From a virus, in the IMG/VR virus record IMGVR_UViG_3300046012_001123, positions 1-26,411 of that record: DNA of 26,411 bases. One strand, given 5' to 3'. This document shows positions 1,252 through 26,411 of the stretch, in pieces. The translations under genes and the position numbers were made by a program. Every line of letters begins with the position of its first letter. Position 1 is the first letter of the stretch. A model generated the notes under the pieces. It was given only the letters and a program-made list of their open reading frames with translations, searched no databases and was not told where the DNA came from.

Positions 1252-2454
1252 CTACTGCACCGGTCCGCTCTTAGGCTCGAGCAGCGCCCCGAACAGGTCC
1301 GCCACCCGCATGTCGTCGGCGTCGATGGCGTGGGTGTAGTGCTCTAGCGTCACCTTGGGGTCGGCGTGGCCCAGCCGCTTCTGCCGCGTCTTGAGCGGCG
1401 TTCCCCAGGTGTCCATCTGCGTCGCGTTCAGGTGCCGGAAGGCGTAATTGCCGCAGCGGATGCCCATGGCCTTCACCCGGGCGCGGATACCCAGCTGGTC
1501 GAGGATCGGGTCCAGCACCCGCTGCCGGAAGCTGTCCATCGACAGCGGCTTTCCGCCCTCGTGCTGGTTGATGCGCGTCTGCCGGCCGTGCTGGTTGGCG
1601 CGCACCCGCCATTTTTCCGTGACGAAGAGCAGGCCATACTCGTTCGGCTCGGCGCCGCGGATGAACTCGTCGAGATCGCGGCCCAGCCGCTCGCTGATGG
1701 CGAAGCTGCGCACCGCCGCCCGGGACTTCACCGTCTGCACCTTGCGCGCCCACACCGACTGGCTCACGCGCAGGCTGCGCAGATGGCAGTTCTCGCTTTT
1801 CAGGCCGGCCAGCTCCCCGGGCCGCATGCCGGTCTCGAAGAGGATGCGGAAAAACAGCTTCCACTTGCCCTCCGCCTTTTGGATGATCGCGATCGCCTCT
1901 TCCACGGTGAAGCTGTAGGTGTTCCCCTTGGGCACCTCGGGCAGCACCAGCCCCGCGAAGGGATCCTCCCGGACGTAGCCCCAGTCCTTGGCCGTGGCCC
2001 ACATCGAGCGCAGCGTCCGCACCAGGTTGTGGATGGTCTTCGGACCCACGCTGCCGCGCTTGCCGGCGATCCAGGCCTGCAGCGCTTCGGTGGTGATGTC
2101 GCGCAAACGGTGTCCGCCCCAGGCCGGCTTCAGGTGCACCTTGATCACGCTGCGCTCGCTCGGCTGCGAGCTGGGCTTGTGCTGGGGCAGGATCGTCTTC
2201 TCCCATTTCTCCGCGAATAGCGCGAAGGTGCCCGCCCACTCCGGCCGGTAATCCTCGCGGTTCACCTCGTTCAGCCGCTCCGCCAGCAGGCGCTCGGCCA
2301 TGGGCTTGGTCACGCCCTTGGTAGGCGCAATCACGTCCCAGCGCCGTACTCGCTTGACGGTTCCGTCGGGCAGTTCCACATCCTCACGCCACCGGCCCAC
2401 CCAGCGCTCGCCATCCCGCGTCAGCTGCCCGCGCTGAAACCTGCGCCGCGCCAT
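1252..2454 (-). CDS. int: Tyrosine recombinase / phage integrase
   Basis: The 400-aa protein would integrate and excise the phage at the tRNA-fMet site beside it. It opens with a basic segment (MARRRFQRG) and a DNA-arm-binding-like region, then a SAM-like core-binding domain (about residues 75-170) and a catalytic domain. Catalytic residues visible are Arg211 (GMRPGEL), Arg340 (AFRH), His363 (LGH) and nucleophile Tyr373 (HYTH). The first His of the usual HxxR box is Tyr337. I chose the ATG at 2452-2454 because GGAGGA lies about 9 bases before it and the protein then begins like other integrases. A longer form from 2526 would overlap the upstream gene's stop and is possible through coupling. 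It is last in the leftward lysogeny operon. Confidence 0.93.
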   Translation of the reverse strand: MARRRFQRGQLTRDGERWVGRWREDVELPDGTVKRVRRWDVIAPTKGVTKPMAERLLAERLNEVNREDYRPEWAGTFALFAEKWEKTILPQHKPSSQPSERSVIKVHLKPAWGGHRLRDITTEALQAWIAGKRGSVGPKTIHNLVRTLRSMWATAKDWGYVREDPFAGLVLPEVPKGNTYSFTVEEAIAIIQKAEGKWKLFFRILFETGMRPGELAGLKSENCHLRSLRVSQSVWARKVQTVKSRAAVRSFAISERLGRDLDEFIRGAEPNEYGLLFVTEKWRVRANQHGRQTRINQHEGGKPLSMDSFRQRVLDPILDQLGIRARVKAMGIRCGNYAFRHLNATQMDTWGTPLKTRQKRLGHADPKVTLEHYTHAIDADDMRVADLFGALLEPKSGPVQ

Positions 2455-2518
2455 GGTGCGTATCCTCCGCGAGGCAAGCATACAGCCACGCGGCGGTGTG
2501 GCGTCATCTCCTTGTCGA

Positions 2519-2929
2519 TCAGTCATTTACACAACTCACATTTGATTTTCGTGGAAGCGGCGTGACAACGTATCCGGGTTCAACCATGCCGCCACAGATC
2601 GGCTCCATATCGTACAGCTCACGGTTTGCCAGAGTCATCCGGCCAGCGTCAGTTATTCGAATCGACCTCGCACAGCGAGCCTCGGACCAGCGGCCTCTCC
2701 GCCACCAGTCTTCATGGGATGCGAGCCAGCTGAGAAGCTCGTTGCTGCCAAGCAACCCGAAGACATAGACGCCATCCGTTCCGTGCCGATGGTATTTATC
2801 CCATGGGCACATCCAAACCATTCCCTCCGCAGCTACCCGCTCCATGAATTTCCACTGGGCATCGCGTTCAGCCCGCGCAAACTTCCGCGATCTGTAGTCC
2901 GTCAGCCTTTTGGGCTTCACTCGGCTCAT
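2519..2929 (-). CDS. Hypothetical protein between repressor and integrase
   Basis: This 136-aa protein starts with a very basic helix (about residues 1-30), has a Trp-rich middle (WLASHEDWWRRGRW near 68-81) and ends with a compact segment beginning IRITDAGRM, which could be the wing of a small winged-helix fold. The start codon overlaps the repressor's stop in an ATGA arrangement, so the two are translationally coupled. Its own stop overlaps the longest possible integrase start. I do not recognise a named family. The position suggests an excisionase or regulatory partner in the lysogeny operon, but nothing in the sequence proves this. Confidence 0.7.
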   Translation of the reverse strand: MSRVKPKRLTDYRSRKFARAERDAQWKFMERVAAEGMVWMCPWDKYHRHGTDGVYVFGLLGSNELLSWLASHEDWWRRGRWSEARCARSIRITDAGRMTLANRELYDMEPICGGMVEPGYVVTPLPRKSNVSCVND

Positions 2930-3192
2930 CGCGATCCTTTCTTCAGCGCCCAGATCTTCTCGATGGGCAGCTCGACAAACGCGGCAAGGCGCAGCGCGGT
3001 TTCAAGCGAGGGCGTGCAGCCATGCTCCACCTGGCAGAGCACGGCGTTGTTCACGCCCAGCGCCGTCTGCACCTGGCGCAGCGTGACGCCGCGATCCAAG
3101 CGCATCGCCTGCAGGTCCACCAGCAGCACGGTCCGCGAGGGCCGCTGCGCGCGCTGGATACGCCGGCTCGGTTTAAGTTCGCTGAGTTTCAT
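2926..3192 (-). CDS. XRE-family HTH repressor (small CI/Cro-like)
   Basis: The 88-aa protein is almost entirely a helix-turn-helix domain of the XRE/lambda-repressor class. The recognisable core runs from about residue 30 to 80: R-L-D-R-G-V-T-L-R-Q-V, then G-V-N-N-A-V-L-C-Q-V-E-H-G, then helices ending in I-E-K-I-W. It lacks the C-terminal peptidase or oligomerisation domain of CI, so it would not be inactivated by RecA-type self-cleavage. It heads the leftward operon and faces the early operon across a 118-bp region with both promoters. The most likely role is the lysogeny switch repressor acting on the palindromes at 3284 and 6574, but Cro-like action cannot be excluded. Confidence 0.85.
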   Translation of the reverse strand: MKLSELKPSRRIQRAQRPSRTVLLVDLQAMRLDRGVTLRQVQTALGVNNAVLCQVEHGCTPSLETALRLAAFVELPIEKIWALKKGSR

Positions 3193-3263
3193 GTGGAAAA
3201 ATTAGCAGGCTAAAGTTATGCTGTCAACCATAAATATGCTTGACATATTAAATCATGTGGAAA
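3190..3263. repeat. 10-bp direct repeat in the switch region
   Basis: CATGTGGAAA occurs at 3190-3199 and again at 3254-3263 in the same orientation, 64 bp apart, about six helical turns. The first copy covers the repressor start codon and leftward -10 box; the second lies in the spacer of the rightward promoter. Such placement suits a regulatory protein that contacts both promoters, though two copies may be chance. Confidence 0.4.
3199..3227 (-). promoter_or_regulatory. Leftward promoter for the repressor operon
   Basis: On the minus strand TTGACA (3227-3222) is followed after 17 bases by TAATTT (3204-3199), a good sigma70 match. The -10 box ends 6 bases before the repressor ATG (3192). A start point 7 bases after the -10 box would fall on or beside the A of that ATG, so the transcript would be leaderless or nearly so, as for lambda cI from pRM. 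No Shine-Dalgarno sequence precedes the ATG, which agrees. Confidence 0.65.
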
Positions 3264-3269
3264 TATGAT
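3240..3269 (+). promoter_or_regulatory. Rightward early promoter
   Basis: TTGACA (3240-3245), an 18-base spacer and TATGAT (3264-3269) form a near-consensus sigma70 promoter in an AT-rich island. Transcription would begin near 3276, just before the palindrome at 3284-3300. It drives the long + strand gene block starting at 3311 and is divergent from the repressor promoter. Confidence 0.75.
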
Positions 3270-3283
3270 AATTCCAGAGAGAA

Positions 3284-3300
3284 TATGACAGGTTGTCATA
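3284..3300. promoter_or_regulatory. Operator-like palindrome, copy 1
   Basis: TATGACA, three bases (GGT), TGTCATA is a perfect 7-3-7 inverted repeat between the early start point and the ribosome site (AGGAGG, 3301-3306) of the first early gene. A bound protein would block transcription from the early promoter. The same arms and spacing occur at 6574-6590. The XRE protein at 2926-3192 is the obvious candidate to bind; this is inference. Confidence 0.7.
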
Positions 3301-5976: not shown

Positions 5977-6578
5977 AACTTCCCGACGTCACCAGCCACC
6001 CCTCGGATCACGCCACACTGGGGGCGTTGCTCGATCTTGCCGCCGAGGCCCGCAAGGCGTTTCCGGAGACGGCATCCGATGGCCACGCCGCCGTCTTCGA
6101 CCTGCTCTTCTTCTGGCGCCGCCTGCTGCCCGCCTTCGAACTTGCCGGCAAGCACCACTTCACCCAGACCGACAAGGGCGGCGAGCTCAAGCTCTGGCAC
6201 GTGCTGCGCGTCTCCGCCTCGCTGCTCCCCGACGTCGACGCCGCCGTAGTTGGCGCGCTGCACGATCTGCTCGAAGACACCCCCTGCACGCTCGAAGCGT
6301 GTGTCGCAGCCTGCCACCTGACGCCCGTCCAGGCCGCCGCCCTGCAGCTGCTCACCCACGATCCGCAGGACAGCTACGACAACTACATCCTCGCGCTCAC
6401 CATCGACACCCCGGGGGGAGCAATGGCCCGCAGGATCAAGCTCGCCGACCTGCGCGACAACCTCGACCTGCGCCGCTTCGCGCTGGCCGTCTCGAACTCC
6501 GGCGCCGATGCCATGGCTCCCCTGCGCGAGCGCTACCTGCGCGCGCTGAGGGTGCTCGCTCCGGACGCCGCCGTATGA
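5973..6578 (+). CDS. HD-family hydrolase like SpoT/MESH1, candidate alarmone hydrolase
   Basis: The 201-aa protein shows the metal-binding signature of RelA/SpoT hydrolase domains: His76 (WHVLRV, where SpoT has the HPL box), His97-Asp98 followed by Glu101-Asp102-Thr103 (LHDLLEDT), and Asp159 with Asn163 (KLADLRDN). A DKGGE segment precedes His76 as in small hydrolases and phage HD proteins. There is no synthetase, TGS or ACT domain, so it resembles stand-alone MESH1-type enzymes, which remove the 3' pyrophosphate from (p)ppGpp with manganese. The start is the ATGA overlap at 5973; longer frames run into the previous gene. It ends exactly in the second operator palindrome. Another nucleotide substrate is possible. 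Confidence 0.8.
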   Translation: MKLPDVTSHPSDHATLGALLDLAAEARKAFPETASDGHAAVFDLLFFWRRLLPAFELAGKHHFTQTDKGGELKLWHVLRVSASLLPDVDAAVVGALHDLLEDTPCTLEACVAACHLTPVQAAALQLLTHDPQDSYDNYILALTIDTPGGAMARRIKLADLRDNLDLRRFALAVSNSGADAMAPLRERYLRALRVLAPDAAV

Positions 6579-6590
6579 CACCTTGTCATA
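6574..6590. promoter_or_regulatory. Operator-like palindrome, copy 2
   Basis: TATGACA, three bases (CCT), TGTCATA: identical arms and spacing to the site at 3284-3300, differing only in the middle. It overlaps the stop codon of the HD hydrolase and opens the 259-base gap before the chaperonin block. Two perfect copies in 26 kb, both ahead of gene blocks, argue for a true regulator site. Confidence 0.7.
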
Positions 6591-6631: not shown

Positions 6632-6661
6632 TTGACAATTTCTTTCGACTTTATTTAGGTT
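6632..6661 (+). promoter_or_regulatory. Possible promoter of the chaperonin block
   Basis: In the AT-rich gap 6591-6837, TTGACA at 6632-6637 is followed after 18 bases by TAGGTT (6656-6661), a weak -10. The rest of the gap shows no gene I can support; it would form a leader of about 170 bases before the ATG at 6838. The perfect -35 is the main support. Confidence 0.45.
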
Positions 6662-6837
6662 GGCATCACTTCTGCTTTTGATGTTGCTTCACCTGTTGCT
6701 GCTGCTCCCCGAGCCGGACCCCTTCGCGGTGTGCGTATTCGGGAGGAAGGTTCTCGATTCGTGCTGGCTTTGCCTCGTTCCGCCCCTCCTCTGCCGCCCT
6801 CGGGCCAATCTACCCCATTCATATTCAGGAGAATTCC

Positions 6838-7200
6838 ATGACCCGCACCCTTCGCGTGCTGGTGGCCGCTGCCGGCTTTTTGGCCGTCACCGCCCTGCTG
6901 CTCGCCCAGTCGCCCGCGCCCCATCCGGCCCTTTCGCAGCCTGCCCCCGCCGCCAGCCGTCCGGCAGCCCCCGCGCCGACCCCGCTTGAAAAGGCGCAGC
7001 TTGAAAACATCCAGCTCAAGCTGATGCTCCTCGACGACGAAGAGCGCTCCATTCCCGAGCGCCGCCAGCAGCTGCAGCAACAGTACGGCGCAATGGCCCA
7101 GCAGATCCAGGGCGAGCATCCCGGCTACCTCTGGAGCCCGCAGCAGGGCGCGCTGGTGGCCATCCCCAAGCCGGCGGCCAAGCCCGAGGTGAAAAAGTAG
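6838..7200 (+). CDS. Exported coiled-coil protein leading the chaperonin cassette
   Basis: A 120-aa protein with a clear Sec-type signal: basic MTRTLR, hydrophobic stretch about residues 7-23, then AQS. A Pro/Ala-rich linker (about 24-50) follows, then a charged heptad-like helix about 51-93 rich in Leu, Glu, Gln and Arg, probably a coiled coil. The tail is basic. AGGAG precedes the ATG. It would act in the periplasm or, if the signal is not cut, as a membrane-anchored coiled coil. Its position as first gene before GroES, three bases away, is notable because chaperonins work in the cytoplasm. Family not recognised. Confidence 0.75.
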   Translation: MTRTLRVLVAAAGFLAVTALLLAQSPAPHPALSQPAPAASRPAAPAPTPLEKAQLENIQLKLMLLDDEERSIPERRQQLQQQYGAMAQQIQGEHPGYLWSPQQGALVAIPKPAAKPEVKK

Positions 7201-7203
7201 CCC

Positions 7204-7539
7204 ATGCCGCGGCCTCTTCCCACTCCCATCTCCGATCACATCGTGGTGCTCCCCATCGAGCGGCCTCTTGAAGTCGGCGGCATGGCCCGCCCTCAGTCCG
7301 CGGCCGAGATGCCCTCCGAAGGCGTCGTTGTGCTGGTCGGACCCGGCCGCGTCACCGAGCACGGGGTGCGCGTCAAGCCGGAAGTCGAAGCGGGCGACCT
7401 GGTCAGCTTTCCCAGCTACGCCGGCAAACTCATCGCCGACCCGGTCGGGCTCTATCCCGGCCAGTACCTGCTCGTCCGCCAGGACGAGCTCTATCTCAAC
7501 CACGGGCCCCAGTCCCGAGAAAGCGAGCCGCATGAGTAA
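7204..7539 (+). CDS. groES: Phage GroES co-chaperonin
   Basis: This 111-aa protein follows the GroES layout (E. coli: 97 aa): an N-terminal strand (ISDHIVVLPIE), the mobile loop at about residues 22-40, then GxVVxVGxGR-like and V-x-x-G-D-x-V-x-F strands (VEAGDLVSFPSY), and a C-terminal strand ending LVRQDELYL. It would cap the chaperonin ring made by the next gene. The mobile-loop Gly-Gly is present, but the hydrophobic Ile-Val-Leu that docks into GroEL is Met27-Ala28-Arg29 here. The last 15 residues extend past the normal end. The stop overlaps the groEL start by eight bases, so the two are coupled. Confidence 0.9.
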   Translation: MPRPLPTPISDHIVVLPIERPLEVGGMARPQSAAEMPSEGVVVLVGPGRVTEHGVRVKPEVEAGDLVSFPSYAGKLIADPVGLYPGQYLLVRQDELYLNHGPQSRESEPHE

Positions 7540-9352
7540 GGCATTGCTCTATTCCCGCCACGTCCGCCAGGAGCAGGACCTCCACCAGGAGCTGCTCGAA
7601 GGCGTGGCTCAGATCGCGCTCGCCGTAGCCTCCACGCTCGGTCCCCGCGGCTGCAACGTCATCATCGACCGCCCCGGCGAAACCCCCGACGTCACCAAGG
7701 ACGGGGTCACCGTGGCCCGCAACATCCAGCTGACCAACCCCGTGCACCACGCCGCCGTGAAGATGATTCAGGACGTGGCCAAGGCTCACGAGCTCGAGAC
7801 CGGCGACGGCACCACCACCGCCACCGTGCTCGCCCACCGGCTCTTCGAGGGCGGCCTCCAGCTGGTCGACCAGCAGGGCGAGAGCCCGGTGGGCCTGCAG
7901 CGCGCCATCCTCGCCGCCGTCGAGGCCGTGGTGGCGCAGGTTCGCCGTCTGGCCCGCGAAGCCACCGACGAGCAGATCGTGCAGGTGGCCTCGATCGCCA
8001 CCAACGGCGACGCCGCTTTCGGCCAGGTGATCGGCGAAGCCATCGGCAAGGTGGGCCGCGATGGCATCCTCACCTTGGACGACAGCAAGGAGCCGCGCAT
8101 CTGGTTCGAGGCCCGCGACGGCTTCCGCATGAATTCCGGCTTCCTCTGGCCCGACTTCATCACCGACCGCGGCCACGGCACGGCGGTGCTTGAAAACCCC
8201 TACATCCTGATCACCGAGCGGCAGCTCTCGCAGGGCATCGGGCAGAACCCGACCCTGCACGACATCGGTCCACTGATGACCTTCTGCGCCGGGCTGAACC
8301 GGCGCGGCGACGCCCGCGAGCGCGAGCCCCGGCCGCTGCTGATCGTTGCCGACGACGTGCTTCATGGCTCCGACTGCGCCCAGGCCCTGCTCATCAACCA
8401 TTCCAACTGGGACAAGTCGCGCCGCGGCATTCCGGTGCAGGGCGGCGGCCTGCAGATTTGCGCGGTGCGCGCCCCTGGCTACGGCGAGCTGAAGCGCTCG
8501 GCGCTCTCGGACCTGGCTCTGGCCACCGGCGGGCGCGTGCTCACCCAGGACGGCGGCGAGGCGCTCTCCCAGTGGGTCCTCGACGACAAGCGCGGCCGCT
8601 GGACCGATGCCAACCTCGGCCAGTGCCGGCGCGCCGTCGTGTCGAACGGCCGCGTCATCCTCGAAGGGCCGGCGGGCGATGCTGCCGATCCCGGTCTGCT
8701 TCCCCGCTTCGCCCAAAGCCTGCGCCAGCAGGCCCAGGAGCAGACCGACCCGCAGAGCCGCGAGCACCTTCTACAGCGCGCGGGAAGGCTTACCGGCATG
8801 GTCGGCGTGATCCACGTCGGCGCCAAGACAGAAGCCGAGTCCAAGGCCCTCCGCGCCCTGGCCGAGGATGCCGTCCTCGCCGTCCGCGCTGCGCTCGCCG
8901 AAGGCGTCGTCCCCGGGGGCGGCCTCACCCTCTTCCTGCTCGCCGAGCAGCTTTCAAACACCGTCGCCGATCTGCCCAAGGAAGCCCAGGCGGGCGCGCA
9001 TCTGCTCGCCGCAGCCATGCAGTGGCCTATGCGCCAGATCGCCATCAACGCCGGCCAGAACCCCGACGAGGTGGCCGACGAAGTCCTGCTGCTCAACTCC
9101 ACGGGGAAGCAGTCTGAAAAACTGATCGGCTTCAACGCCGCCAATGGACGGTACGAAGAAATGATCGGCGCCGGCATCGTCGATCCCGCCAAGGTCGTCC
9201 GCGTGGCTCTCGAGAAAGCCTCCTCGATCGCCGCCCTCATGCTCACCACCAGCTGCCTGGTCTACCTCGATCCCCAGGTCCACCGCCAGCAGCCCATCAT
9301 CCAGTTGCCGCAGTTCCCCATGCAGCCGGCCATGGCCGGAAGGGGAGAGTAG
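7532..9352 (+). CDS. groEL: Phage GroEL chaperonin, divergent
   Basis: The 606-aa protein is a full-length group I chaperonin (E. coli: 548). The equatorial ATP site is intact: TLGPRG (35-40), TKDG with Asp57 (E. coli D52), GDGTTTAT with Asp92 (D87), Asp446 (D398) and GVVPGGG. Spacing between the last two aspartates is 43 residues longer than in E. coli, with extra segments in the apical domain around GQNPTLHD and NWDKSRRG. At inter-ring positions R452 is kept (Arg501) but R445 is Ala494 and E461 is Asn510. The C-terminal Gly-Gly-Met tail is replaced by a Gln/Pro-rich end. I start at ATG 7532; the longer open frame is groES in another frame. Confidence 0.95.
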   Translation: MSKALLYSRHVRQEQDLHQELLEGVAQIALAVASTLGPRGCNVIIDRPGETPDVTKDGVTVARNIQLTNPVHHAAVKMIQDVAKAHELETGDGTTTATVLAHRLFEGGLQLVDQQGESPVGLQRAILAAVEAVVAQVRRLAREATDEQIVQVASIATNGDAAFGQVIGEAIGKVGRDGILTLDDSKEPRIWFEARDGFRMNSGFLWPDFITDRGHGTAVLENPYILITERQLSQGIGQNPTLHDIGPLMTFCAGLNRRGDAREREPRPLLIVADDVLHGSDCAQALLINHSNWDKSRRGIPVQGGGLQICAVRAPGYGELKRSALSDLALATGGRVLTQDGGEALSQWVLDDKRGRWTDANLGQCRRAVVSNGRVILEGPAGDAADPGLLPRFAQSLRQQAQEQTDPQSREHLLQRAGRLTGMVGVIHVGAKTEAESKALRALAEDAVLAVRAALAEGVVPGGGLTLFLLAEQLSNTVADLPKEAQAGAHLLAAAMQWPMRQIAINAGQNPDEVADEVLLLNSTGKQSEKLIGFNAANGRYEEMIGAGIVDPAKVVRVALEKASSIAALMLTTSCLVYLDPQVHRQQPIIQLPQFPMQPAMAGRGE

Positions 9353-9628
9353 ATGGCAGCCCAAGTCATCGCCACGGCAGTTCCGCTTGCCCCACCGCCA
9401 GATCCAGACCGGGTGCGGGGGCGGCTGGTCGCCATCAAGCGCGACGGCTACGGCTTCATCTCCATCGGGCCGGATGAGCCGCAGTTCTTCGTCCTTCAGT
9501 CCGACATCCCGCCCCGGCACTGGCGCCGCGGCATAGTGGTCGAGTTCACTCCCATGCCCGCCAGCCGCGGCAAACGTAACCCGCGCGCCGGCAACCCAGT
9601 TCCCATCCCCGCGGAGGTAGAGCCGTGA
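9353..9628 (+). CDS. Cold-shock-domain-like OB-fold protein
   Basis: A 91-aa protein whose residues 20-70 follow the cold-shock domain: RGRLVAIKRDGYGFI contains an RNP1-like GYGFI, and QFFVLQSDI corresponds to the RNP2 strand (VFVH in CspA). A GIVVEF strand and a C-terminal GKR..A..V stretch complete the OB fold. It would bind single-stranded RNA or DNA. The N-terminal 18 residues are a Pro/Ala-rich addition. The ATG follows the groEL stop with no gap, so it belongs to the chaperonin cassette; RNA chaperoning alongside protein folding would fit. Confidence 0.75.
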   Translation: MAAQVIATAVPLAPPPDPDRVRGRLVAIKRDGYGFISIGPDEPQFFVLQSDIPPRHWRRGIVVEFTPMPASRGKRNPRAGNPVPIPAEVEP

Positions 9629-9906
9629 GCGTGATCATGGTCGGCAAAAACGCCATCTACGAAGTGGACGATTGCGGCGGCCGCCGCGAGATTAGCTGCT
9701 CCTTCGTTCCCCAACCAGCCCCTGATCCGCGCGACTGCCTCTGGTACAGCGGGAAGGGCGGGATCGAGCGCATCACCCGGTCTGAATTCCGGCGTCGCGA
9801 GCGCCGCGAGGTCCGGCATGGCTTCTTTCTCGTCGCCGGCGTCGCCGGGGCCGTGCTCGCCGTTCTGGCCGCGTGCGCATGTCTGGTGCGTTTTGGGTTG
9901 CCCTGA
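9625..9906 (+). CDS. Small tail-anchored membrane protein
   Basis: This 93-aa protein uses a GTG start overlapping the previous stop (GTGA at 9625-9628), with GGAGGT six bases upstream; an ATG at 9637 is a weaker alternative. Residues 1-65 are polar and charged, with a basic run near 56-64 (RRRERREVR). Residues 66-90 form one hydrophobic span. By the positive-inside rule the N-terminal part should be cytoplasmic. It closes the chaperonin cassette. No family recognised; a link of the chaperonin to the membrane is conceivable but unproven. Confidence 0.65.
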   Translation: MSVIMVGKNAIYEVDDCGGRREISCSFVPQPAPDPRDCLWYSGKGGIERITRSEFRRRERREVRHGFFLVAGVAGAVLAVLAACACLVRFGLP

Positions 9907-10225
9907 AGGCGTAAAAAAGGCTGTGTATATCGTGGAATTGTAAGTTGCCTATTTGCAGTCGATTGGAAGGACGATTGTCTGTTTTCCGAATTTTCAACAG
10001 GGTTTTTCAGGAGGTGCTCGAAAGTCGTGTAAATCGCCGGACGCAATTCGCTTCCGGTACTGGTTTTCAAAAACGTCCACAAAGTTTTCCTAATTGATTT
10101 GCACATTTTGAGCGGCCGTAAACCATTAATTGACGTGTCAATTAACCTGCGGTTCCGAAGTTTCCACAGGGAACTACTACTGCTTCTAGAGAATAGGAAA
10201 CTTACTTACTCGAAAGGAGAAGCTG
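9907..10225 (+). promoter_or_regulatory. 319-base AT-rich regulatory gap
   Basis: No gene fits in this stretch, which is far richer in A and T than its surroundings. It holds a perfect 9-2-9 inverted repeat at 10126-10145 (arms TTAATTGAC and GTCAATTAA around GT) and a second inverted pair AAGTTTCC / GGAAACTT at 10158-10165 and 10196-10203, 30 bases apart, which could form a hairpin in the leader. I see no convincing promoter hexamer pair, though TTGACG lies inside the palindrome. The ribosome site AAGGAGAA precedes the next gene. It probably separates the chaperonin block from the third block; an origin is also possible. Confidence 0.5.
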
Positions 10226-10948: not shown

Positions 10949-11317
10949 GTGAAGCCACCCCTCACTCCCATCAACCTGGGCTCGGTCGCCAAAGGCGCGG
11001 CCATTGAGCTCTTCGAGAAGGCCATCGACGCTGTGGTCCGCAACATCGCGGACACCGACACCGAGGCCGGCGCCGAGCGCGAGATCGTCCTCAAGTTCAA
11101 GTTCAAGCCCGAGGGCGACCGCCGCGGCATCGAGATCCTCACCACCGCCTCCACCAAGCTGGCCGGGGCCATGAAGCACAAGAGCCGCGCCTATGTGGGC
11201 AAGGACACCGCCGGCGGCCAGCATCTCTTCCTCGAAGACCCGCGCCAGGACACGCTTTTCGACCTGCCCCAGCAGCAGGACAACCTCGTCGACTTCAAAA
11301 CTCCGGCCGCGCAGTAG
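10949..11317 (+). CDS. Phage protein often annotated as replication terminator-like
   Basis: The 122-aa protein starts with GTG at 10949 after CAAGGAG. The pattern I-N-L-G-S-V-A-K-G-A-A-x-E-L-F-E, then N-I-A-D-T-D-T with E-I-V-L-K-F-K-F-x-P and a final T-K-L-A, matches a small phage family that in Firmicutes prophages is labelled replication terminator protein. That name rests on weak annotation and the biochemical role is unknown. The next gene is also its usual neighbour there, so the pair is a conserved unit that has crossed host phyla. Confidence 0.65.
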   Translation: MKPPLTPINLGSVAKGAAIELFEKAIDAVVRNIADTDTEAGAEREIVLKFKFKPEGDRRGIEILTTASTKLAGAMKHKSRAYVGKDTAGGQHLFLEDPRQDTLFDLPQQQDNLVDFKTPAAQ

Positions 11318-11368: not shown

Positions 11369-12151
11369 GTGATCAAAGAAGCAATCGAGTACATCGAGCA
11401 TCTTACCCAACGCGCCTACCACAAGGCCCTCATCGAGCCGACCAGCGAACCCTTCGACGGCCTGCTCTGCAGCTACATGCGCGAAGTCGTTCCTGGCCAG
11501 TTCGGGCCTAAACTCGGCCCTATCGTCACGCCGCCGCGTGCCGCCAAACTCGAAGTCAAGACCCTGACCGGCTTCCTCGACGCCATCCGCTCCGGCGCCG
11601 GCGGCAAGCTCGACGGCCGCATCGTTCACGTCGAGGACTACCTCAACGTGGCCCTGAAGTCCGCCTACAGCGATGTTTTCGGGGTGCGCGACACCGTGCT
11701 CAAGGCCACCTACACCCCGCTGAACATCTTCAAGTTCGGCCACTACTACGACGACCCGCAGGAATTCATCATCGCCCTCAACGGCGCTTTCCTGATGAAC
11801 GAAGAAGCGGTCTACGTGCAGCGCGTGGCTTCCGGGCTCGCCGTGGTCCAGGGCGCGGTCTCGACGGCCGACGACGGCTTCAGCCAGACCATCGTCGTCA
11901 AGCAGGGCGAGGTCCGCACTTCGGAAGCCACCATCAAGCCCCGCGTGAAGCTCATCCCCCGCCGCACCTTCGACGAGGCGGCGCCGGCCGAGAGCGAGTT
12001 CCTGCTGCGCCTCAAGGGCACGTCGCCGACACCCTCGATCGCGCTCTTCTACGTCGACGGCACCCGCTGGCAGGGCGAGCTGATGGAATCGATCCGCAAG
12101 CATCTCGTCAAGCATTTGCCGGACGAGCTCAAGGACAAGGTGCTCGCCTGA
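11369..12151 (+). CDS. Conserved early phage protein, partner of the preceding gene
   Basis: A 260-aa protein starting with GTG at 11369 (CAGGAAAGGA upstream). Features match a family I know from Firmicutes phages beside the so-called replication terminator protein: L-x-V-K-T-L-T-G-F-L-D, a V-x-V-E-D-Y-L strand, the F-K-F-G-x-Y-Y-D-D-P-Q-E-F-I-I-A-L core, then D-D-G-F-S-Q-T-I-V-V-K-Q-G and a P-R-R-T-F-x-E segment with an F-L-L-R-L strand. It may be related to DUF2303-type proteins. No catalytic motif is visible. It probably acts with its partner in early DNA metabolism; this is inference from context. Confidence 0.65.
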   Translation: MIKEAIEYIEHLTQRAYHKALIEPTSEPFDGLLCSYMREVVPGQFGPKLGPIVTPPRAAKLEVKTLTGFLDAIRSGAGGKLDGRIVHVEDYLNVALKSAYSDVFGVRDTVLKATYTPLNIFKFGHYYDDPQEFIIALNGAFLMNEEAVYVQRVASGLAVVQGAVSTADDGFSQTIVVKQGEVRTSEATIKPRVKLIPRRTFDEAAPAESEFLLRLKGTSPTPSIALFYVDGTRWQGELMESIRKHLVKHLPDELKDKVLA

Positions 12152-12814: not shown

Positions 12815-12840
12815 ACCTTGGCAGAAAGGAGCATGAAGCC

Positions 12841-13458
12841 ATGAGCATACGTGCATACCCGCTGTGCTGGCCGGATGGCTGGAAGCGGACACTGATCCAT
12901 CAGCGGTCATGGAGCCGGTTCACCCATCAAAAGCGCACGGCGACCATTGCCGATGGCGTGGGGCGAATCATCTCCGAACTAGAGAAGTTGCGGGTGAAGC
13001 GCGACGATCTGGTGATCTCGACGAACGTAGAGACGCGCCTGGATGGACTGCCCCGCGGCGACCGCACGAATCCAGCCGATCCTGGGGTGGCTGTGTACTG
13101 GCGTAAGGGTCAAGGCAAGCCTATGCAGTGTATGGCCATCGACCGCTATCGGGATGTGGCCGGCAACCTCTGCGCTGTCGCGGCGACGCTGGAAGCCATG
13201 CGGGCCATCGAACGGCATGGCGGCGCCGAGGTTTTGGAGCGGGCGTTCACCGGCTTTGCTGCGTTGCCGGAAAGAGCTAGTCGGTCATGGAGAGAAGTGC
13301 TCGGTCTGCAAACCATAGAGACCGTCACTCGCCACCACATCGAGGCTGAATATCGGTTGCTGGCCCGCGAACGTCATCCGGACCGTGGCGGATCGCATGA
13401 AGCCATGAGTGAGTTGAACATCGCCCGCGAGCTTGCCCTGGCGGAGATTGGCGCATGA
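12841..13458 (+). CDS. Phage J-domain (DnaJ-like) protein
   Basis: The 205-aa protein has a C-terminal J-domain (about residues 148-205) with the diagnostic His179-Pro180-Asp181 after a helix L-L-A-R-E-R, used to stimulate the ATPase of Hsp70 (DnaK). The first 145 residues form a distinct domain (Y-P-L-x-W-P-x-G-W; ISTNV...RLDGLPR; DPGVAVYW; CMAIDRY; LEAMRAIERHGG). I recall this as a widespread phage family annotated as molecular chaperone DnaJ. The N-terminal domain may choose the client. AAAGGAG precedes the ATG at 12841; the longer frame from 12310 is not coding. With GroEL/ES it gives this phage two arms of the folding machinery. Confidence 0.85.
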   Translation: MSIRAYPLCWPDGWKRTLIHQRSWSRFTHQKRTATIADGVGRIISELEKLRVKRDDLVISTNVETRLDGLPRGDRTNPADPGVAVYWRKGQGKPMQCMAIDRYRDVAGNLCAVAATLEAMRAIERHGGAEVLERAFTGFAALPERASRSWREVLGLQTIETVTRHHIEAEYRLLARERHPDRGGSHEAMSELNIARELALAEIGA

Positions 13459-17798: not shown

Positions 17799-19538
17799 TC
17801 ACCTTCTCGTCATCCGCCGGCCGATCCGGCGCGTCCCGCCCAAAGGCATTCCCCGCCCCGCCGCCTGCTCCTCCGCCCGTATCTTCTGCTCCCGCTGCCA
17901 GGCATACCGCGCCAGCGAGGTCTCGTCCATCCCCCCCTTGCGCATCTCGTCGATCTCCTCTTCGAGCGTCACCCGCGCCGGCTTCACGCTCTCGCTCAGC
18001 CAGCTGTTCCAGGCATACGCCGTCTCGTCGTAGGCGTCGTCCTGCGGGTTGCCTTTCTCCTTCTTCACCGCCTTGCGCGCGTCGATCACCCGGCTCTGGA
18101 TGGTGCGGAAGGTGTAGGGGCAGGCGCTGGTCACCACCAGGGCGCGGTTGGAAAGCCCGTTGTAGAGGTTCTGTGCGTTGCCCACCGGGTCGTGCGCGCC
18201 CAGCACGCAGCTCACCCCATGCTCGGCGAAGACTTCGCTCATGATCTCGAAATTCGATTTGCCCGTGCCCGTGTGCTGGTCGTTGGCCGGGTCGGTCATG
18301 GCGAAGAGGATCCGCGGCGGCTCCGGGTCCTTCGGGCGCATCTTCTTCAGCCACGCCTCCTGCGGACCCTGGCGCGGGTTGTCGCTGGCCTTGAAGCCGG
18401 TCTTGCACAGCCCCAGCGCGAAGTTGTGCGAGGACATCTTGCGCTCGATCCGCTCCCGCACCTTGAACACCTGGCCGGAAGGCGCGATCGCGTACATCCC
18501 CGCCGCCGCCGCCGAATTGCCGTACCCGTAGTCGATGGAGATGAAGTGGCCCCACCACCACTCGTCCTTCACTTCCTGGAAGGGCACCATGTACTCCGGG
18601 CGCAGGAAGGGGAAGTAGAGCCCCTCGGCGTTGCACCAGCAGCCGAACAGCAGCTGCTCGCGCAGCGTCGCCGTCTGGGTCAGCAGGCTCTCGAGCTTCA
18701 CCCGGTCCGAGTACACCGGGTTGTCGATCAGCCGCGCCGGGATGAATCCCGTGGTCTTGAAGACCGGCGCGTCGTCGGACGGCCACCTGGCGCCGCAGTA
18801 GACCCTGCCCGGCACCACGCTGGTCTCGAAGGGCGCGGAGTCGTCTACGGGGGCGGGAAAGTGGACCGGGCAGCGGTTGCGCAGGAACACCGACATCTGC
18901 CAGCCGTGGCCGGGGCCGCCGGGGTTGGCGCCGAGGCGAGCGCGCACGAACAGCCGCGTCCAGGTGGGCGCGGCCAGCCAGCCCAGCAGCCGCCGGATAA
19001 GCTTCTCCTCGTGGTGCCCGCTCTCGTCCACCCCGATATGCGACTTGGGGTTACCCTGGTAGCGCAGCAGGTCCTTCTCGTTGCGCATGTAGCCCGGGGT
19101 CACGTAGCCGCTGTGTGGAAAGACCCAGGCGTAGTCCTCGAACTTCGACGGCCTCTTCCACTTGGCCCCCAGCGGCTCATAGAGCTTTTGCATCTGGTCG
19201 GCCATCTCGCCCATTTCCGTCTTGGTGGTGCGCAGGATCAGGCTCTTGAGATAGGGGTTGCGGTACTCCTGCATGGCGTCGGCGGCCAGGAAGCTGGTCT
19301 TGCCGCCGCCCGACTGGCCGCCGAAGAGCAGCAGTTCGGCGCGGCTGTTGATGGCCGCCTGCTGCGCGGTGTTGATCGGCCACCAGTTGGGCGACCAGTT
19401 CGGCGGGTGCAGGTGGAAGGGCGGAGGAACCAGAGGCGCAAAGGGCAGGCGCGGCGCGGTGCGCTTGAGGTCGCGCAGGTAGTCTTCAACGTCCTGTCCG
19501 GGGATCAACGCCGGGAACAGCGGTGGGGATTCGAGCAA
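17799..19538 (-). CDS. terL: Terminase large subunit (TerL)
   Basis: The 579-aa protein is the packaging motor. The ATPase domain shows Walker A G-G-Q-S-G-G-G-K80-T and Walker B I-G-V-D171-E172. The RNase H-like nuclease domain has Asp336 (ISIDYG), Asp416 and Asp420 (TDPAND), and a late D-D-A-Y-D-E segment that supplies further acidic residues. Length and layout are normal for TerL of tailed phages. The start is a TTG at 19538: an in-frame stop lies two codons upstream and no ATG occurs for 87 codons. There is no clear ribosome site, so translation may depend on the gene ending 22 bases before. It is last in the leftward late operon. Confidence 0.92.
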   Translation of the reverse strand: MLESPPLFPALIPGQDVEDYLRDLKRTAPRLPFAPLVPPPFHLHPPNWSPNWWPINTAQQAAINSRAELLLFGGQSGGGKTSFLAADAMQEYRNPYLKSLILRTTKTEMGEMADQMQKLYEPLGAKWKRPSKFEDYAWVFPHSGYVTPGYMRNEKDLLRYQGNPKSHIGVDESGHHEEKLIRRLLGWLAAPTWTRLFVRARLGANPGGPGHGWQMSVFLRNRCPVHFPAPVDDSAPFETSVVPGRVYCGARWPSDDAPVFKTTGFIPARLIDNPVYSDRVKLESLLTQTATLREQLLFGCWCNAEGLYFPFLRPEYMVPFQEVKDEWWWGHFISIDYGYGNSAAAAGMYAIAPSGQVFKVRERIERKMSSHNFALGLCKTGFKASDNPRQGPQEAWLKKMRPKDPEPPRILFAMTDPANDQHTGTGKSNFEIMSEVFAEHGVSCVLGAHDPVGNAQNLYNGLSNRALVVTSACPYTFRTIQSRVIDARKAVKKEKGNPQDDAYDETAYAWNSWLSESVKPARVTLEEEIDEMRKGGMDETSLARYAWQREQKIRAEEQAAGRGMPLGGTRRIGRRMTRR

Positions 19539-20804: not shown

Positions 20805-23800
20805 TTACTGTTTAGCGGCGGTCTCCTGCGGAGTGCCTTCGATCTGCGGCGGCTCGTGCTCGGCGGGCACGCTGGCCAGCGCCTCGCGCCACTCTTTCAC
20901 CAGCGCCGCCCGTTCCTGCGGGTCGGTAATCTCCGGCAGCTGCGACTCGCCCTTGCGGATCAGCGCCGGCCGCAGCTCCATCTTCTCCTGCGGTGTGGCA
21001 GCGTTGAAAATATCGAGCACGGTGGGATCGCCCTTGTGCAGCGGCCGGAAGCGGATGCCCGCGCTCGCGAACTCGTTCACGAACCGCGGCTGCTGCGCCC
21101 GCTCCACCACCCGCCAGGCGGTGTTGACGCTCATCTTGCCCGCCTTGGCTTCCTCCAGAATGTCCCGCGCCTTGATCTTTCCATTGCGCAGCTCGTCCTC
21201 CAGCTGGTAATTGCGCCGGCTGGCCGCCTGCCGCTCCTCGTCGTCGGCCATGTCCGGGATGTTGGCCACGTAAACCTTGTGGATCATCCCCTCGGCCTTG
21301 GTCCGGTCCTGCGAGCCGTAGATCCCGCTCGCGCTCAGCATCGAGCCCAGCAGCGAGATGTCCGGCGTGGTGAACACCTTCTGAACCTGGAAGGGCATCG
21401 ACCGCTTCACCGCATCCTGCACCCGGTGGGGAAAGGTTCTCTGCTTTCCGTAGTAATCGCGGCCGGTGGCGAATTCGAGCGCCGCGGAGAAGGGCGACGA
21501 CAGCCGGTTCATCAGCGCCTGGCGGGTGTCGGTGGCCACGTGCACCGCATCCTCGAGCGAGCCGCGCACCCCGTACTCCTGGCCGTGAAACACCACCTTG
21601 AAGGCGTGCTCCTTGTCCCACTTGGCATCGCCCTGGTTGAGCACCGCATTGAGCGCCCGCGCGGCCACATACACCATGCCCAGCCCGCGCAGCAGCGCCG
21701 CCGCCTGCATGCGCCCGTGGGGCAGCGCGGCCTGGGCCACGTAGCGGCCCGTCGACTCGGCGAAGGTCGGCGCGAAGAAGATCAGCCGCAGCGCCTGCTT
21801 GGCCGTCTTCGACCGCGGCAGCGCGTCGAAGGCCGTGTTGATCACGCCCACCGATGCGTTCCCCTGCTTGGCGCTCAGCTCGAAGAGCATGCGCTGGGCG
21901 AGATCTTTGGCCGCCTGCTTCTTTTCCGCCTCGCCGGCCCCGCCCATCTTCGCCGCCACCTCGCGGTAGGCCCGGTCCTCGAATTCCTTTCCATAGAGCC
22001 GCGAGTTGGCCTCGTAGGCGATCCTGCCCAGTTGCATACCGGCGCGCGGGATCCAGTCCTGAAACATCCACTGCGAGAAGGCATGCACGCGGTCCATGGC
22101 CACGTTCACTCCCGGCACGCCCTCGAAAACCCCTTTCAGCACCCGCGCGGAAAACAGTCCCTCGGCGTCGGCGTGCAGCGGGTCCAGGCCATTGGCCACC
22201 AGCCCGCGCTGCACCGTATCGCCCATGTCGATCGGGGGAAGCCGGAAGGGATTGGCCCCATGCTCGATCACGCGCCGACCGATGTTGACCACGTGGAACG
22301 GCGCCGGAATCACCGAGGTCATCAGCTCTTTCGAGAGCGCGTTCATCTGCAGGATGCCGTGCCCGATGCGCTGCGAGAGCTTCTGGTTGCGGTCGAACCA
22401 TCCCGGCCGCATCATGTCCTCCACCTGGTCGGCCACCGAGTTGTGAAAGTAGAGATTGCCCTTGAAGGCGATGCGCGAGGGGTCCTCGCCCCACAGCTTG
22501 GGATCGTCCTTGAAGCCTTCCAGGTCCTCGGCCGTGGGCTCGAACAAAAAGCCGCGCGTCTGCGGCAGGTCCGGGAATTCCTTGTAGTCGCGCAGATTGA
22601 CGTCCTCGGGAATCTCCTGCCGGCGCATGATCTGCGGCACCTCGTCGTCGCGCGCCACCATCCAGCGGCCCACCGCGTTCATCACCGCGAGCGGCTTGCC
22701 GTCCGGCGACTTGGCCAGCATGGAATTGCGCAGCAGCGTGCGCGTGGCCAGGGCGTCGGAAAAAGCCGCATCGTAGGCCGAGAGCAGGTAACCGATGTCG
22801 GGGTTCTTGGGGATCAGCCCATGATTCTCGGCGTCGAGATAGGTCTCGAACACCCGCTCCTTGATGAACCCGGGGTTGGGGTTGAGCTCGCTCATGTCGA
22901 TCAGGTGGGCCAGGTTATCCGCCTCGCCGGTGCGCACATAAAGATGGTTCACGTAATTGCGCGCCGCGTTGTAGAGCATTCCTGTCTCCTGCCCCACTTT
23001 CAGCAGGTCCTGGAAGTGCTTCTGGATGCGCATGGCCACGGCCTTCTGCTGCGGGTCGAGATGGGCCGCGGCCTTATAGTGCGCAATGGAATCGTGGTAG
23101 TGGTCCTTGAGCCGCGCGTCCATGGGCCGCGACTTGAACAGGTCCCAGCGCTGTTCGGCAAGGGTCGCCCACTTCTTCAGCTTCTCCGGATCGCCGCCGG
23201 CCTCGATCCAGTACTTGATGCCCGCGCGCGCATCCGCATCGGGCATGGTTTCTTTGACCGCCTTCGCCAGAGCCCGCACTGCCAGCGCCGACTCGGTCTT
23301 GGCCACGTTGGCATCGCCCACCAGCCCTTTCCAGTCGGTGGGCTTGGGCACGCCGAGGGATTTGATCTTGCCGGCCACCAGCTGCCCCGTGGTCCGCGCC
23401 ATGTCCGCCAGCTGCGACGGCTCGCCTGAAAATCTGAAATCGTGCGCCAGCGCCGCCGTCAAGCCGTTGGTGCGCGCCAGGCCCTTTTCGAGGCCCGGTA
23501 TCCGCCGCCAGAAGGCGCCTGCCCGTCCTGTCGATTGGTCGAACTCGTGACCCGCCCAGTCGCTGAACCGTTCCACCGCCGAGCGGCCGTCCTCGGCCGG
23601 CGTCTTGCCCAGGTCCTCGATCAGATCCTGTACGCTGCGCGCCACCGGGTTCTCGGTGTCCGTCTTCTGGAAGAGCGTCTCCGCCTCCGGCGCCGGCTCC
23701 TTGAATTTTGAGAGATCGAGATGCCAACGGACCGCGCCGGCCTTTTCCCCGGCATCGGGCGTCTCCACGCCGCCCAGCTTTTTCCAGATGCCCGCCACCG

Positions 23801-26411
23801 CGTCCTTCGAGCCGCCCTCGGGGTCTGAAGTCAGCTCGGTTCCCCCCTGCGACTTCACATAGTCGATCGCGTCCCGGTACATCCGGGTGGCCACGCCGCG
23901 GCCTTTTTCGAGACTCTGCACCAGCCGCACCGCCCATTTGCCGTCGCCCTCCGGCGAGACGATCATGTGCCCCGCCATACCCCAACGCGGCTCGAGATCC
24001 CTGGAATTTACATACTCGGGTTTGAAATAGCCATGTTGTTTGGCATATTCTTCGGCGGTTGGCGCCTGGTAGGTTTTGGCGAAAAACTCTTTCCAGCCCG
24101 GACCGTCGTCGGAGTCAATCGGCTCCGTGGTCCGCAGGTCGCCGGCCTTGGGCGCTTCCCGCTGGAAGAGCGTGGTGTTTTCGCCGGTGCCATGAAACAG
24201 CGGCGACTCGCGCTCCATCCTGCCCGCGGCCGCGCTGATGTCGCCCTGGGGCCGGCGCATCTCGTCGCCCAGCAGTTGCGCCTGAGCCTCGCCCTTGGCC
24301 GCGCCGCGCTCGGTGTCGGCATTCTCCATGCCCGGCAAGGCCAGCGAGTCATCCGGGCGCAGGGCGCTCTTGCTGGCCCGCTGGAAGGCTAGTTCACCTT
24401 CCGCCGCGCCGCCTTCTGGAACACCCGGTTCGCCACCTGCACCACCGGGTCCTCTTGGCTGTCCCGGAGCACGCGCATGCCCTTCTTCGCCTCCGGGGAG
24501 CGGTTGAACTCCTCGACCGCCGCCTTGAGCCGCGCCTCGTGCCGCGCCTCCTCGGCCTCTTTCATCGGGTTCTGCTTCATAGCCCCTCCGCGCTTCCTTC
24601 AGCGCCGCTTCCGCCTCCGGCGTGACCGGCGGCAGGCTCGAGAAGATTGTATCCCCATGCTCATCGGCCGCGGCGCGCAGAAAACTGTGCACCAGGTCGA
24701 AGCGCTGCTCCGCGGTCAGCTTCAGCGCCGGATCCCCGGCCAGCGCCTTGGCCATCAGCTCGAGCGTGATCTCGTTCCTTCCCTCCGCCCCGCCGCGCTT
24801 CCCGTAGCCCATCGCCCGCAGCTGGTCCGCGATCGCGCGGAACTCCGGCCGGGATGCTACCTCCTGAATTGCGTCCGACTGCGCCATGCGGTTGCGCCGC
24901 TGCCAGCCGTGCCAGGCCTCTTCAAGCACCGTGTCCGGCCCGTGGTCGCCGCGCAGCAGCACCACGCTGCCGTCTTCCTGCCGTCCCTCGCGGATCGACT
25001 GCGCCATGCGGTCGTAGCCGGCGGCGGCCTCCGCTCCTCCCACCTCGCTGCGCGCGCTTCCCGCCTGCGAGCGCAGCATCAGTTCCAGCTTATTGGCCGC
25101 CTCGCGGCTCAGCGAGACGCCCTTCCAGGCCGTGCGCTCACCCAGCCCGGCGCGGTGCCAGAGCGCATAGGCATCGGGATCGAGCACCACCGCCTTGCCG
25201 GCCGCGGTGTCGGTCACCTGCGCCTTCTGCGCCGCCGCGTTCTCTCGCAACGTGCGCTTGCGCGCTGCGTCGATGCCGCGCGCGTATTCGTCCGCAGAAA
25301 CAGCTTGGCCGGGAGCTGTTTCTCTCCCGGCCTCGGCTGCTGTGCTTTCGCTGTTTTTAGAAGTTGCTTCGGGGCTTAGTAGGGCACCTGCAGGTGTGGG
25401 TCCTCGTCCAGATTCTTGCCCCAGTTTTGCATTGCCGCCTGGGATTGGGCCGCCAGATTCTCCGCCGGAGGTGCCTTGGTCGGTGGCGCGGGCGGCCTCA
25501 AGGATGGCCTTGCCGCGGTCGCTTTGGAAGAGTCCGTCGCGTTCAAGCCGGGCCAGCGTTTCATTGATCTCACCCCTGGTTTCATTGTAGCTTCTGCCGC
25601 CCAGTTTGGCAACAAAGCGGTTGAGCGCGTCCACGCCCTCGTGCGCCGTGGCTTCGCCCGGCTTGCCGGAGTTGTCCACCACCACAAACTTCACCCGGTC
25701 GCCGAACTCGTCGCGCACCGCTTCGAGCACCCGGGGCACGTTGTGATAAGCGTCGGCCATGTACTTCAGTTGCACGGTGCGCCCGATCCCCGGCCTCTCG
25801 CCATGCCCGACGGCGCGCCGGAACATGCGCTCCACCGTCTTGCCCGGCTCGTCCACATAGACCCACTCGATCACCGGCGTGCGTCCCGCGCCGATGATCT
25901 TGCGCAGCAAGGGGCCAAAACTCTTGTAGTCGTCGCTGATCGCCTCCACCTGCAGCCCCGCGCGGGCGAAGATTCCGCCCGTCTGTTCCGAGGTCTTGCC
26001 GCTTCCCGGCGAGGCCGTGGTCACCCGCACCAGCGGCTTTTCCCGGTTCACCGGCTCGCTCAGCACGGTGTCGAGAGCCGAATTGCGAATCGCCTTGGCC
26101 GCATTGGCGACTACACGATCGTTCCCGGTGGGGTCGGCCTTGAACTCCGGAAATAGTTCCTTGGCCGCATCGGTGGCCAGCGTCGGCACGCCTTTGGTGC
26201 TGAAGCGTTCGAGATAATTCCCGGCCAGCTTGGGCAGGTTCCTCGCCGTCCGCTCGTTGAGGTCGGCCTCTTCGGGGGTTCCGGTCAGGTTCTTGATCGG
26301 TTCCTTGGCGGTGACAATGCGCAACGCGCCGCGCGGGATCTCGTCGAGCTTGTTTCCGTCGCTCAGCCGCGCCCGGCCGCCGGCGCGGCCGCCATTCGGG
26401 GCAGGATTCTC
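20805..26411 (-). CDS. Giant polyvalent phage protein with zeta-toxin-like kinase, partial
   Basis: The frame is open from the right edge to 20805, about 1868 residues, so the start lies outside; the TTG at 26324 is only an internal candidate. Near 25990-26030 a P-loop (ASPGSGKT) followed by ISDD resembles zeta-toxin kinases. Around 24880-24960 V-L-E-E-A-W-H-G-W resembles a metallopeptidase helix lacking its first His. Positions 24300-24350 hold an LPGMEN segment known in polyvalent proteins; 23700-24000 looks like a GNAT fold (G-R-G-V-A-T-R-M-Y). The helix-rich C-terminal 900 residues resemble large polyvalent-protein-associated domains such as LPD38. Known relatives are thought to be packaged and injected to counter the new host. 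Domain limits are approximate. Confidence 0.8.
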   Translation of the reverse strand, partial: ENPAPNGGRAGGRARLSDGNKLDEIPRGALRIVTAKEPIKNLTGTPEEADLNERTARNLPKLAGNYLERFSTKGVPTLATDAAKELFPEFKADPTGNDRVVANAAKAIRNSALDTVLSEPVNREKPLVRVTTASPGSGKTSEQTGGIFARAGLQVEAISDDYKSFGPLLRKIIGAGRTPVIEWVYVDEPGKTVERMFRRAVGHGERPGIGRTVQLKYMADAYHNVPRVLEAVRDEFGDRVKFVVVDNSGKPGEATAHEGVDALNRFVAKLGGRSYNETRGEINETLARLERDGLFQSDRGKAILEAARATDQGTSGGESGGPIPGGNAKLGQESGRGPTPAGALLSPEATSKNSESTAAEAGRETAPGQAVSADEYARGIDAARKRTLRENAAAQKAQVTDTAAGKAVVLDPDAYALWHRAGLGERTAWKGVSLSREAANKLELMLRSQAGSARSEVGGAEAAAGYDRMAQSIREGRQEDGSVVLLRGDHGPDTVLEEAWHGWQRRNRMAQSDAIQEVASRPEFRAIADQLRAMGYGKRGGAEGRNEITLELMAKALAGDPALKLTAEQRFDLVHSFLRAAADEHGDTIFSSLPPVTPEAEAALKEARRGYEAEPDERGRGGAARGAAQGGGRGVQPLPGGEEGHARAPGQPRGPGGAGGEPGVPEGGAAEGELAFQRASKSALRPDDSLALPGMENADTERGAAKGEAQAQLLGDEMRRPQGDISAAAGRMERESPLFHGTGENTTLFQREAPKAGDLRTTEPIDSDDGPGWKEFFAKTYQAPTAEEYAKQHGYFKPEYVNSRDLEPRWGMAGHMIVSPEGDGKWAVRLVQSLEKGRGVATRMYRDAIDYVKSQGGTELTSDPEGGSKDAVAGIWKKLGGVETPDAGEKAGAVRWHLDLSKFKEPAPEAETLFQKTDTENPVARSVQDLIEDLGKTPAEDGRSAVERFSDWAGHEFDQSTGRAGAFWRRIPGLEKGLARTNGLTAALAHDFRFSGEPSQLADMARTTGQLVAGKIKSLGVPKPTDWKGLVGDANVAKTESALAVRALAKAVKETMPDADARAGIKYWIEAGGDPEKLKKWATLAEQRWDLFKSRPMDARLKDHYHDSIAHYKAAAHLDPQQKAVAMRIQKHFQDLLKVGQETGMLYNAARNYVNHLYVRTGEADNLAHLIDMSELNPNPGFIKERVFETYLDAENHGLIPKNPDIGYLLSAYDAAFSDALATRTLLRNSMLAKSPDGKPLAVMNAVGRWMVARDDEVPQIMRRQEIPEDVNLRDYKEFPDLPQTRGFLFEPTAEDLEGFKDDPKLWGEDPSRIAFKGNLYFHNSVADQVEDMMRPGWFDRNQKLSQRIGHGILQMNALSKELMTSVIPAPFHVVNIGRRVIEHGANPFRLPPIDMGDTVQRGLVANGLDPLHADAEGLFSARVLKGVFEGVPGVNVAMDRVHAFSQWMFQDWIPRAGMQLGRIAYEANSRLYGKEFEDRAYREVAAKMGGAGEAEKKQAAKDLAQRMLFELSAKQGNASVGVINTAFDALPRSKTAKQALRLIFFAPTFAESTGRYVAQAALPHGRMQAAALLRGLGMVYVAARALNAVLNQGDAKWDKEHAFKVVFHGQEYGVRGSLEDAVHVATDTRQALMNRLSSPFSAALEFATGRDYYGKQRTFPHRVQDAVKRSMPFQVQKVFTTPDISLLGSMLSASGIYGSQDRTKAEGMIHKVYVANIPDMADDEERQAASRRNYQLEDELRNGKIKARDILEEAKAGKMSVNTAWRVVERAQQPRFVNEFASAGIRFRPLHKGDPTVLDIFNAATPQEKMELRPALIRKGESQLPEITDPQERAALVKEWREALASVPAEHEPPQIEGTPQETAAKQ
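24389..24580 (-). CDS. Embedded 63-aa ORF in an alternative frame
   Basis: Inside the polyvalent gene, on the same strand but another frame, an ATG at 24580 follows GGAGGGGC and opens 63 codons to a TAG at 24389. Nearly every codon ends in G or C, as in real genes here, whereas the host frame over exactly this stretch is a Gly/Ala/Pro/Arg-rich low-complexity run with many A- or T-ending codons. The product is highly charged and helical (K-E-A-E-E-A-R-H-E-A-R-L, then V-V-Q-V-A-N-R-V-F-Q-K). It could be a separate small gene or the original frame of the large protein changed by two compensating indels. Confidence 0.55.
   Translation of the reverse strand: MKQNPMKEAEEARHEARLKAAVEEFNRSPEAKKGMRVLRDSQEDPVVQVANRVFQKAARRKVN

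Follow-up and report, generated by a model that had tools for sequence, protein, structure and literature searches.

A chaperonin operon conserved in a lineage of integrase-bearing soil phages

Results

The window analysed here is a 26,411-base IMG/VR virus record whose integrase, small helix-turn-helix (HTH) protein and terminase large subunit identify a phage with lysogeny genes (Table 1), as an earlier note on this DNA had proposed. At 6838-9906 five open reading frames (ORFs), all on the plus strand, form one tightly packed run, with overlaps of 8 nt and 4 nt or gaps of 0-3 nt between neighbours. Their order is exported helical protein (SPcc), GroES, GroEL, cold-shock-type protein and C-terminally anchored protein. 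The claim of a single coupled five-gene unit is borne out by this arrangement. Both the signal peptide and the membrane anchor at the C terminus were read from the sequence by eye rather than computed, and any part played in folding by the three small genes is inferred. The cold-shock-type protein of the window itself has no Pfam match, whereas orthologs in the same slot score 28.7 bits (G006) and 26.9 bits (G002) against the Pfam CSD cut-off of 27. The cold-shock assignment therefore holds for an ortholog above the cut-off, with another just under it, but not for the window protein itself. About 3 kb 3' of the cassette, a J-domain-like protein represents a possible further chaperone component. 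A giant ORF adjoining the terminase (20805-26324, minus strand, 1839 aa in the window) looks large and multi-domain, has no match in Pfam or PHROG and has homologs of up to ~3690 aa in the relatives G002 and G003.

Table 1. Features of the window, in positions of the 26,411-base record.
Feature	Position	Strand	Remarks
Tyrosine integrase	1252..2526	-	Pfam Phage_integrase 7.8e-12; PHROG_1 1.5e-45
Small HTH protein, candidate repressor	2926..3192	-	Pfam HTH_3 E=8.8e-5, just under cut-off
Promoter-like site TTGACA-18-TATGAT, candidate early rightward promoter	3240..3269	+	11/12 matches
Operator-like palindrome TATGACA-GGT-TGTCATA	3284..3300	.	Immunity region; same motif at matching place in G027
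Operator-like palindrome, second exact copy	6574..6590	.	5' of cassette
Cassette leader	6632..6837	+	TTGACA box, CTGCTGCTGC stretch, Shine-Dalgarno AGGAG
Exported small helical protein (SPcc), 120 aa	6838..7200	+	
GroES, 111 aa	7204..7539	+	Pfam Cpn10 1.1e-12; mobile-loop tripeptide MAR, not IVL
GroEL, 606 aa, ATG at 7532	7532..9352	+	ATP site intact; two apical insertions
Cold-shock-domain-like protein, 91 aa	9353..9628	+	CSD matches in orthologs
Small protein with C-terminal hydrophobic segment	9625..9906	+	Same slot in G027, G028, G022, G006, G004, G002
Perfect palindrome TTAATTGAC-GT-GTCAATTAA, 9-bp arms	10126..10145	.	Just 3' of cassette
Lineage marker gene	10949..11317	+	PHROG 997; 3' of GroEL in relatives
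Lineage marker gene	11369..12151	+	PHROG 1029; 3' of GroEL in relatives
J-domain-like protein, HPD motif	12823..13458	+	Pfam DnaJ E=0.0033, below cut-off; orthologs in G006, G004
Terminase large subunit, marker for lineage search	17799..19538	-	PHROG 979 1.7e-24

The motif TATGACA-N3-TGTCATA occurs exactly twice in the window. One copy directly follows the promoter-like site next to the HTH gene; the other lies about 42 bases 5' of the TTGACA box in the cassette leader. Among 200 simulated sequences, 3 contained a repeated palindrome of this type. In G027, the closest relative, the motif lies at the matching immunity position, with one further copy (one mismatch) near the HTH gene, and it was not found at the cassette. 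Repression shared by immunity region and cassette is plausible for the window phage and less clearly so for the lineage; the repressor-like operators of the earlier note are thus partly supported, by an exact motif at both sites, of which the cassette copy is not conserved in G027. A promoter scan with a 16-18 nt spacing rule returned no site at the cassette, where the TTGACA box was spotted through comparison of relatives. A TTGACA-type box and a stretch resembling CTGCTGCTGC recur in the ~200-base leaders that precede the exported-protein gene in the window, G027, G028 and G002. The palindrome just 3' of the cassette differs from the twice-occurring operator-like repeat.

The terminase was chosen as lineage marker because GroEL is universal, and the whole records of the relatives that it retrieved were then searched for Cpn60 and Cpn10. 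No GroEL was recovered from viral contigs with a single-sequence scan, and a two-row profile picked up distant GroELs only. GroEL is present at the locus in all 16 mapped contigs that reach it (window counted); the records that lack it either measure less than 10 kb or stop short of the locus (G004, G008, G025). In all 16 it occupies the same place, beside the exported-protein gene and 5' of the cold-shock gene and/or PHROG 997/1029. This position is kept across phages whose terminases share only 45-50% identity. The full five-gene order, for which the earlier note had suggested searching viral contigs, recurs in G028 (circular, 65 kb) and in G027 (a phage contig in an Acidobacteria metagenome-assembled genome, MAG). 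In G002 and G003 (circular) and G006 (a fragment) the other four genes of the cassette are present without GroES; two extra ORFs precede the anchored-protein gene in G002, and one does so in G003. Parts of the cassette are retained in G022 and G024, and in the G011 group GroES and a look-alike of the exported protein are more widely spaced. SPcc orthologs or look-alikes precede GroES/GroEL in G027, G028, G002, G003, G006 and G024; in G011 one gene intervenes. The 127-base direct terminal repeats of G002, G003 and G028, together with the circular permutation of G002 and G003 relative to each other, indicate near-complete genomes of ~65.4 kb. Between its cold-shock and anchored genes G002 has a 337-aa ORF (L093:10686-11699) built from short repeats (LTRDQLSWLTSDQLSG...), which is missing from the near-identical G003.

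The window GroES matches Pfam Cpn10 (48.2 bits, cut-off 21.1) and PHROG 3188. Its mobile-loop tripeptide is MAR, as in G027, compared with MII in G028 and III in host GroES; it thus departs from the hydrophobic IVL type, a typical though not a strictly defining trait of GroES. Of the 16 GroEL-bearing contigs 10 have GroES, and in the window, G027 and G028 its translation is coupled to that of GroEL. A Cpn10 search of the whole records of circular G002 and G003 gave no match, so that the cassette, described earlier as complete, is complete in the window but not as a norm of the lineage. The GroES ORF of G028 (L240:6951-7538), depending on the start codon chosen, is readable with an N-terminal extension carrying two CxxC...H...C zinc-finger-like repeats.

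GroEL matches Pfam Cpn60_TCP1 (1.8e-54), the phage family PHROG 5725 (7e-105) and NCBIfam GroEL subfamily models, passing the PRK12849 and PRK00013 cut-offs and falling under the TIGR02348 equivalog cut-off (409.7 vs 582.1 bits). At the ATP site 15 of 15 positions are identical to E. coli GroEL (T30-P33, K51, D52, D87-T91, D398, G414, G415, D495), and with the profile matches this confirms the previous reading of a GroES with a full GroEL whose ATP site is intact. The equatorial-intermediate-apical fold is predicted by an AlphaFold2 model (pLDDT 86.4) that superposes on solved GroEL 4ki8 with a Z of 45.2 and an rmsd of 3.8 over 522 aligned residues. The client- and GroES-binding groove of the apical domain is changed in residue identity. 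At the positions checked (Y199, S201, Y203, F204, L234, L237, L259, V263 and V264) 31 bacterial GroELs show essentially no variation, and 152 other viral GroELs mostly retain the same residues. In the window GroEL identities differ at most of them, with helices H and I still predicted and the register of helix H uncertain; Y203, L234 and V263 are replaced in 8 of 8 lineage members, the register at L234 being uncertain owing to an insertion. The apical domain is the most conserved part between MAG host and E. coli GroEL (0.67), the least conserved between window and MAG host GroEL (0.34) and again the most conserved between window and G027 GroEL (0.85), a pattern consistent with a shift in specificity after which constraint returned. 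GroEL evolves under purifying selection: dN/dS is 0.10, 0.065 and 0.048 in close pairs and 0.23 between window and G027, distant pairs near saturation having been left out. Between lineage subfamilies GroEL identity falls to ~30-40%.

G027 (terminase 87%, GroEL 76% identical to the window's) is binned in an Acidobacteria MAG that also has an ordinary host groESL. On the basis of this binning, of a contig without host flanks, the phage host is probably a member of the Acidobacteria. A terminase search of 396 Acidobacteria genomes gave a single match, in that same MAG, on a contig that looks all phage. In 149 Acidobacteria genomes no chromosomal GroEL among the matches listed exceeds 43% identity to the window's, and the five-gene order away from phage genes, named previously as the sign of a captured host operon, was not found there. 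In every tree the lineage GroELs lie together on one side of a branch, whose support is 91 and 97 when all subfamilies are included and 74-90 when one is dropped. Common descent is likely on these trees, which join long branches. The closest GroELs outside the lineage are mostly acidobacterial (~40-48%).

A possible connection to virion proteins comes from G022, where GroES (33618-33920; L243:13618-13920) lies between genes for a putative scaffold (572 aa) and a putative major capsid protein (435 aa), behind a putative portal gene. This GroES is 87% identical to the MAG host GroES, and G025, a close relative of G022 (putative capsid 89%), has none. Capsid and scaffold are assigned purely by position, size and conservation; the putative capsid protein has no match in Pfam, PHROG, PDB or cultured phages, and its structure model has a pLDDT of 27.

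Discussion

The window cassette can be described as a phage-resident group I chaperonin operon. It resembles bacterial GroES/GroEL (Cpn10/Cpn60) in protein families, three-domain fold (Z ~45), ATP-site residues and groES-groEL order, and differs in sequence (34-43% identity), in its groove, in several inter-ring and salt-bridge residues, in its two apical insertions and in lacking a GGM tail. The single-ring chaperonins of phage EL (gp146) and AR9 are likewise phage-encoded GroEL homologs with diverged apical parts. For EL, identity to GroEL is 22% and no GroES is known (PMC7185714), whereas the window GroEL is nearer to bacterial GroELs, has a coupled GroES and belongs to an integrase-bearing phage with circular relatives of ~65 kb. 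In the 160 kb Flavobacterium phage immuto groES also adjoins groEL, with 33% identity, other neighbours and no annotated exported, cold-shock or anchored partner genes alongside. In light of immuto and of the statement that some phages have both genes (PMC7185714), the rarity of a phage GroES-GroEL pair was overstated in the earlier note, as was the restriction of phage GroEL to large virulent phages, since 60-72 kb phages have it besides giant ones. Some GroEL-like genes of soil viruses have been seen as transcripts and peptides in soil (PMC8390657). Such uncultured soil and marine viral genes (PMC8390657; Marine et al. 2017, cited there) were treated singly, whereas here operon, lineage and synteny are described.

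Our preferred explanation, which we consider probable though well short of certain, is a phage-dedicated chaperonin of changed client specificity that is used lytically, probably for virion proteins. GroEL and GroES, translated as a coupled unit, would assemble into an ATP-driven folding ring. Passed down through a single lineage of integrase-bearing soil phages of ~65 kb, the operon would be old enough for GroEL subfamilies to have diverged to their present extent, purifying selection acting throughout. During this time the ATPase would have been retained and the apical groove re-specified. The cassette would most likely be made in the lytic programme, and its clients may be phage proteins poorly folded by the host chaperonin, head proteins being the leading candidates. 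Gene content, conservation, synteny, selection, ATP site and groove enter this explanation as direct observations; ring assembly, clients and timing are its conjectural parts. A precedent for a phage chaperonin component in virion folding is T4 gp31, a GroES replacement for the capsid protein gp23 (PMC3012670, PMC6318259), to which the GroES beside a putative capsid gene in G022 may be compared. T4 uses host GroEL, whereas the window phage encodes its own, which sets it apart from the gp31 type. Devotion to virion proteins, as first suggested for this cassette, stays a best guess, favoured by the GroES in a relative's putative head operon and weakened by how that capsid was assigned. Also counting against our explanation are the GroES-less circular relatives, the MAR loop, the absence of a cassette operator in G027 and the long branches of the trees.

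Some of these points would be accommodated by a GroEL without an obligatory lid, like the EL or AR9 chaperonins, with GroES optional or vestigial and the GroES-less relatives using host GroES or none. Such a lid-optional GroEL is compatible with the dedicated, client-specific chaperonin that we prefer, and we regard it as a real if minority possibility. The circular genomes without a Cpn10 match and the atypical mobile loop are in line with it, as is the observation that EL does not bind E. coli GroES (PMC7185714). The coupling of GroES to GroEL in three phages, the presence of GroES in most GroEL-bearing contigs and its new acquisition by G022 speak against it.

A broader and somewhat more doubtful reading extends the preferred explanation to a class of client-dedicated chaperonins in temperate soil phages. 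In these the ATPase would be kept, groove and GroES key would be re-cut, and the chaperonin would run with exported, RNA-binding cold-shock, membrane-anchored and possibly J-domain proteins as a lytic-only maturation system.

We think it unlikely that the operon instead serves mainly in lysogeny, where a prophage's second chaperonin would raise host stress tolerance (lysogenic conversion). Integrases in the window and in G002, G003, G028 and G016 would suit such a role, the co-chaperonin, chaperonin and cold-shock-type protein make three of the five genes a stress-like set, and the cassette has its own promoter-like leader. Yet GroEL is a core gene of the lineage rather than the sporadic occurrence expected of a prophage moron, the operator-like repeat common to the immunity region suggests shutdown in lysogeny, and Acidobacteria already have their own GroEL. 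A general stress chaperonin should also retain a generic client groove, yet every lineage member has an altered one. Recent capture of a host groESL operon with no special phage function, for which the mostly acidobacterial nearest outside GroELs and the recent acquisition of the G022 GroES from an acidobacterium might be cited, is very improbable and is largely refuted for GroEL by the low chromosomal identities among the matches listed, by its fixed place across phages with distant terminases and by purifying selection.

The chaperonin thus appears to be a settled part of the phage equipment and no recent theft, relatives keeping GroEL in the same place. Phage GroEL and phage groES-groEL pairs were already known. 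What is new is the lineage, on which no paper was found in the literature, the conserved operon with three extra small genes, the series of GroES presence and absence and the changed groove. These findings touch on the question of which proteins phage chaperonins serve and why some phages bring one. They also add to the phages with chaperonins a medium-sized, integrase-bearing soil lineage that has a link to Acidobacteria. Some of its members have GroES at the locus, some have none, and one has captured a host GroES into its putative head operon. This natural series, combined with a groove change in which the ATPase is kept, makes client specificity and co-chaperonin dependence directly testable.
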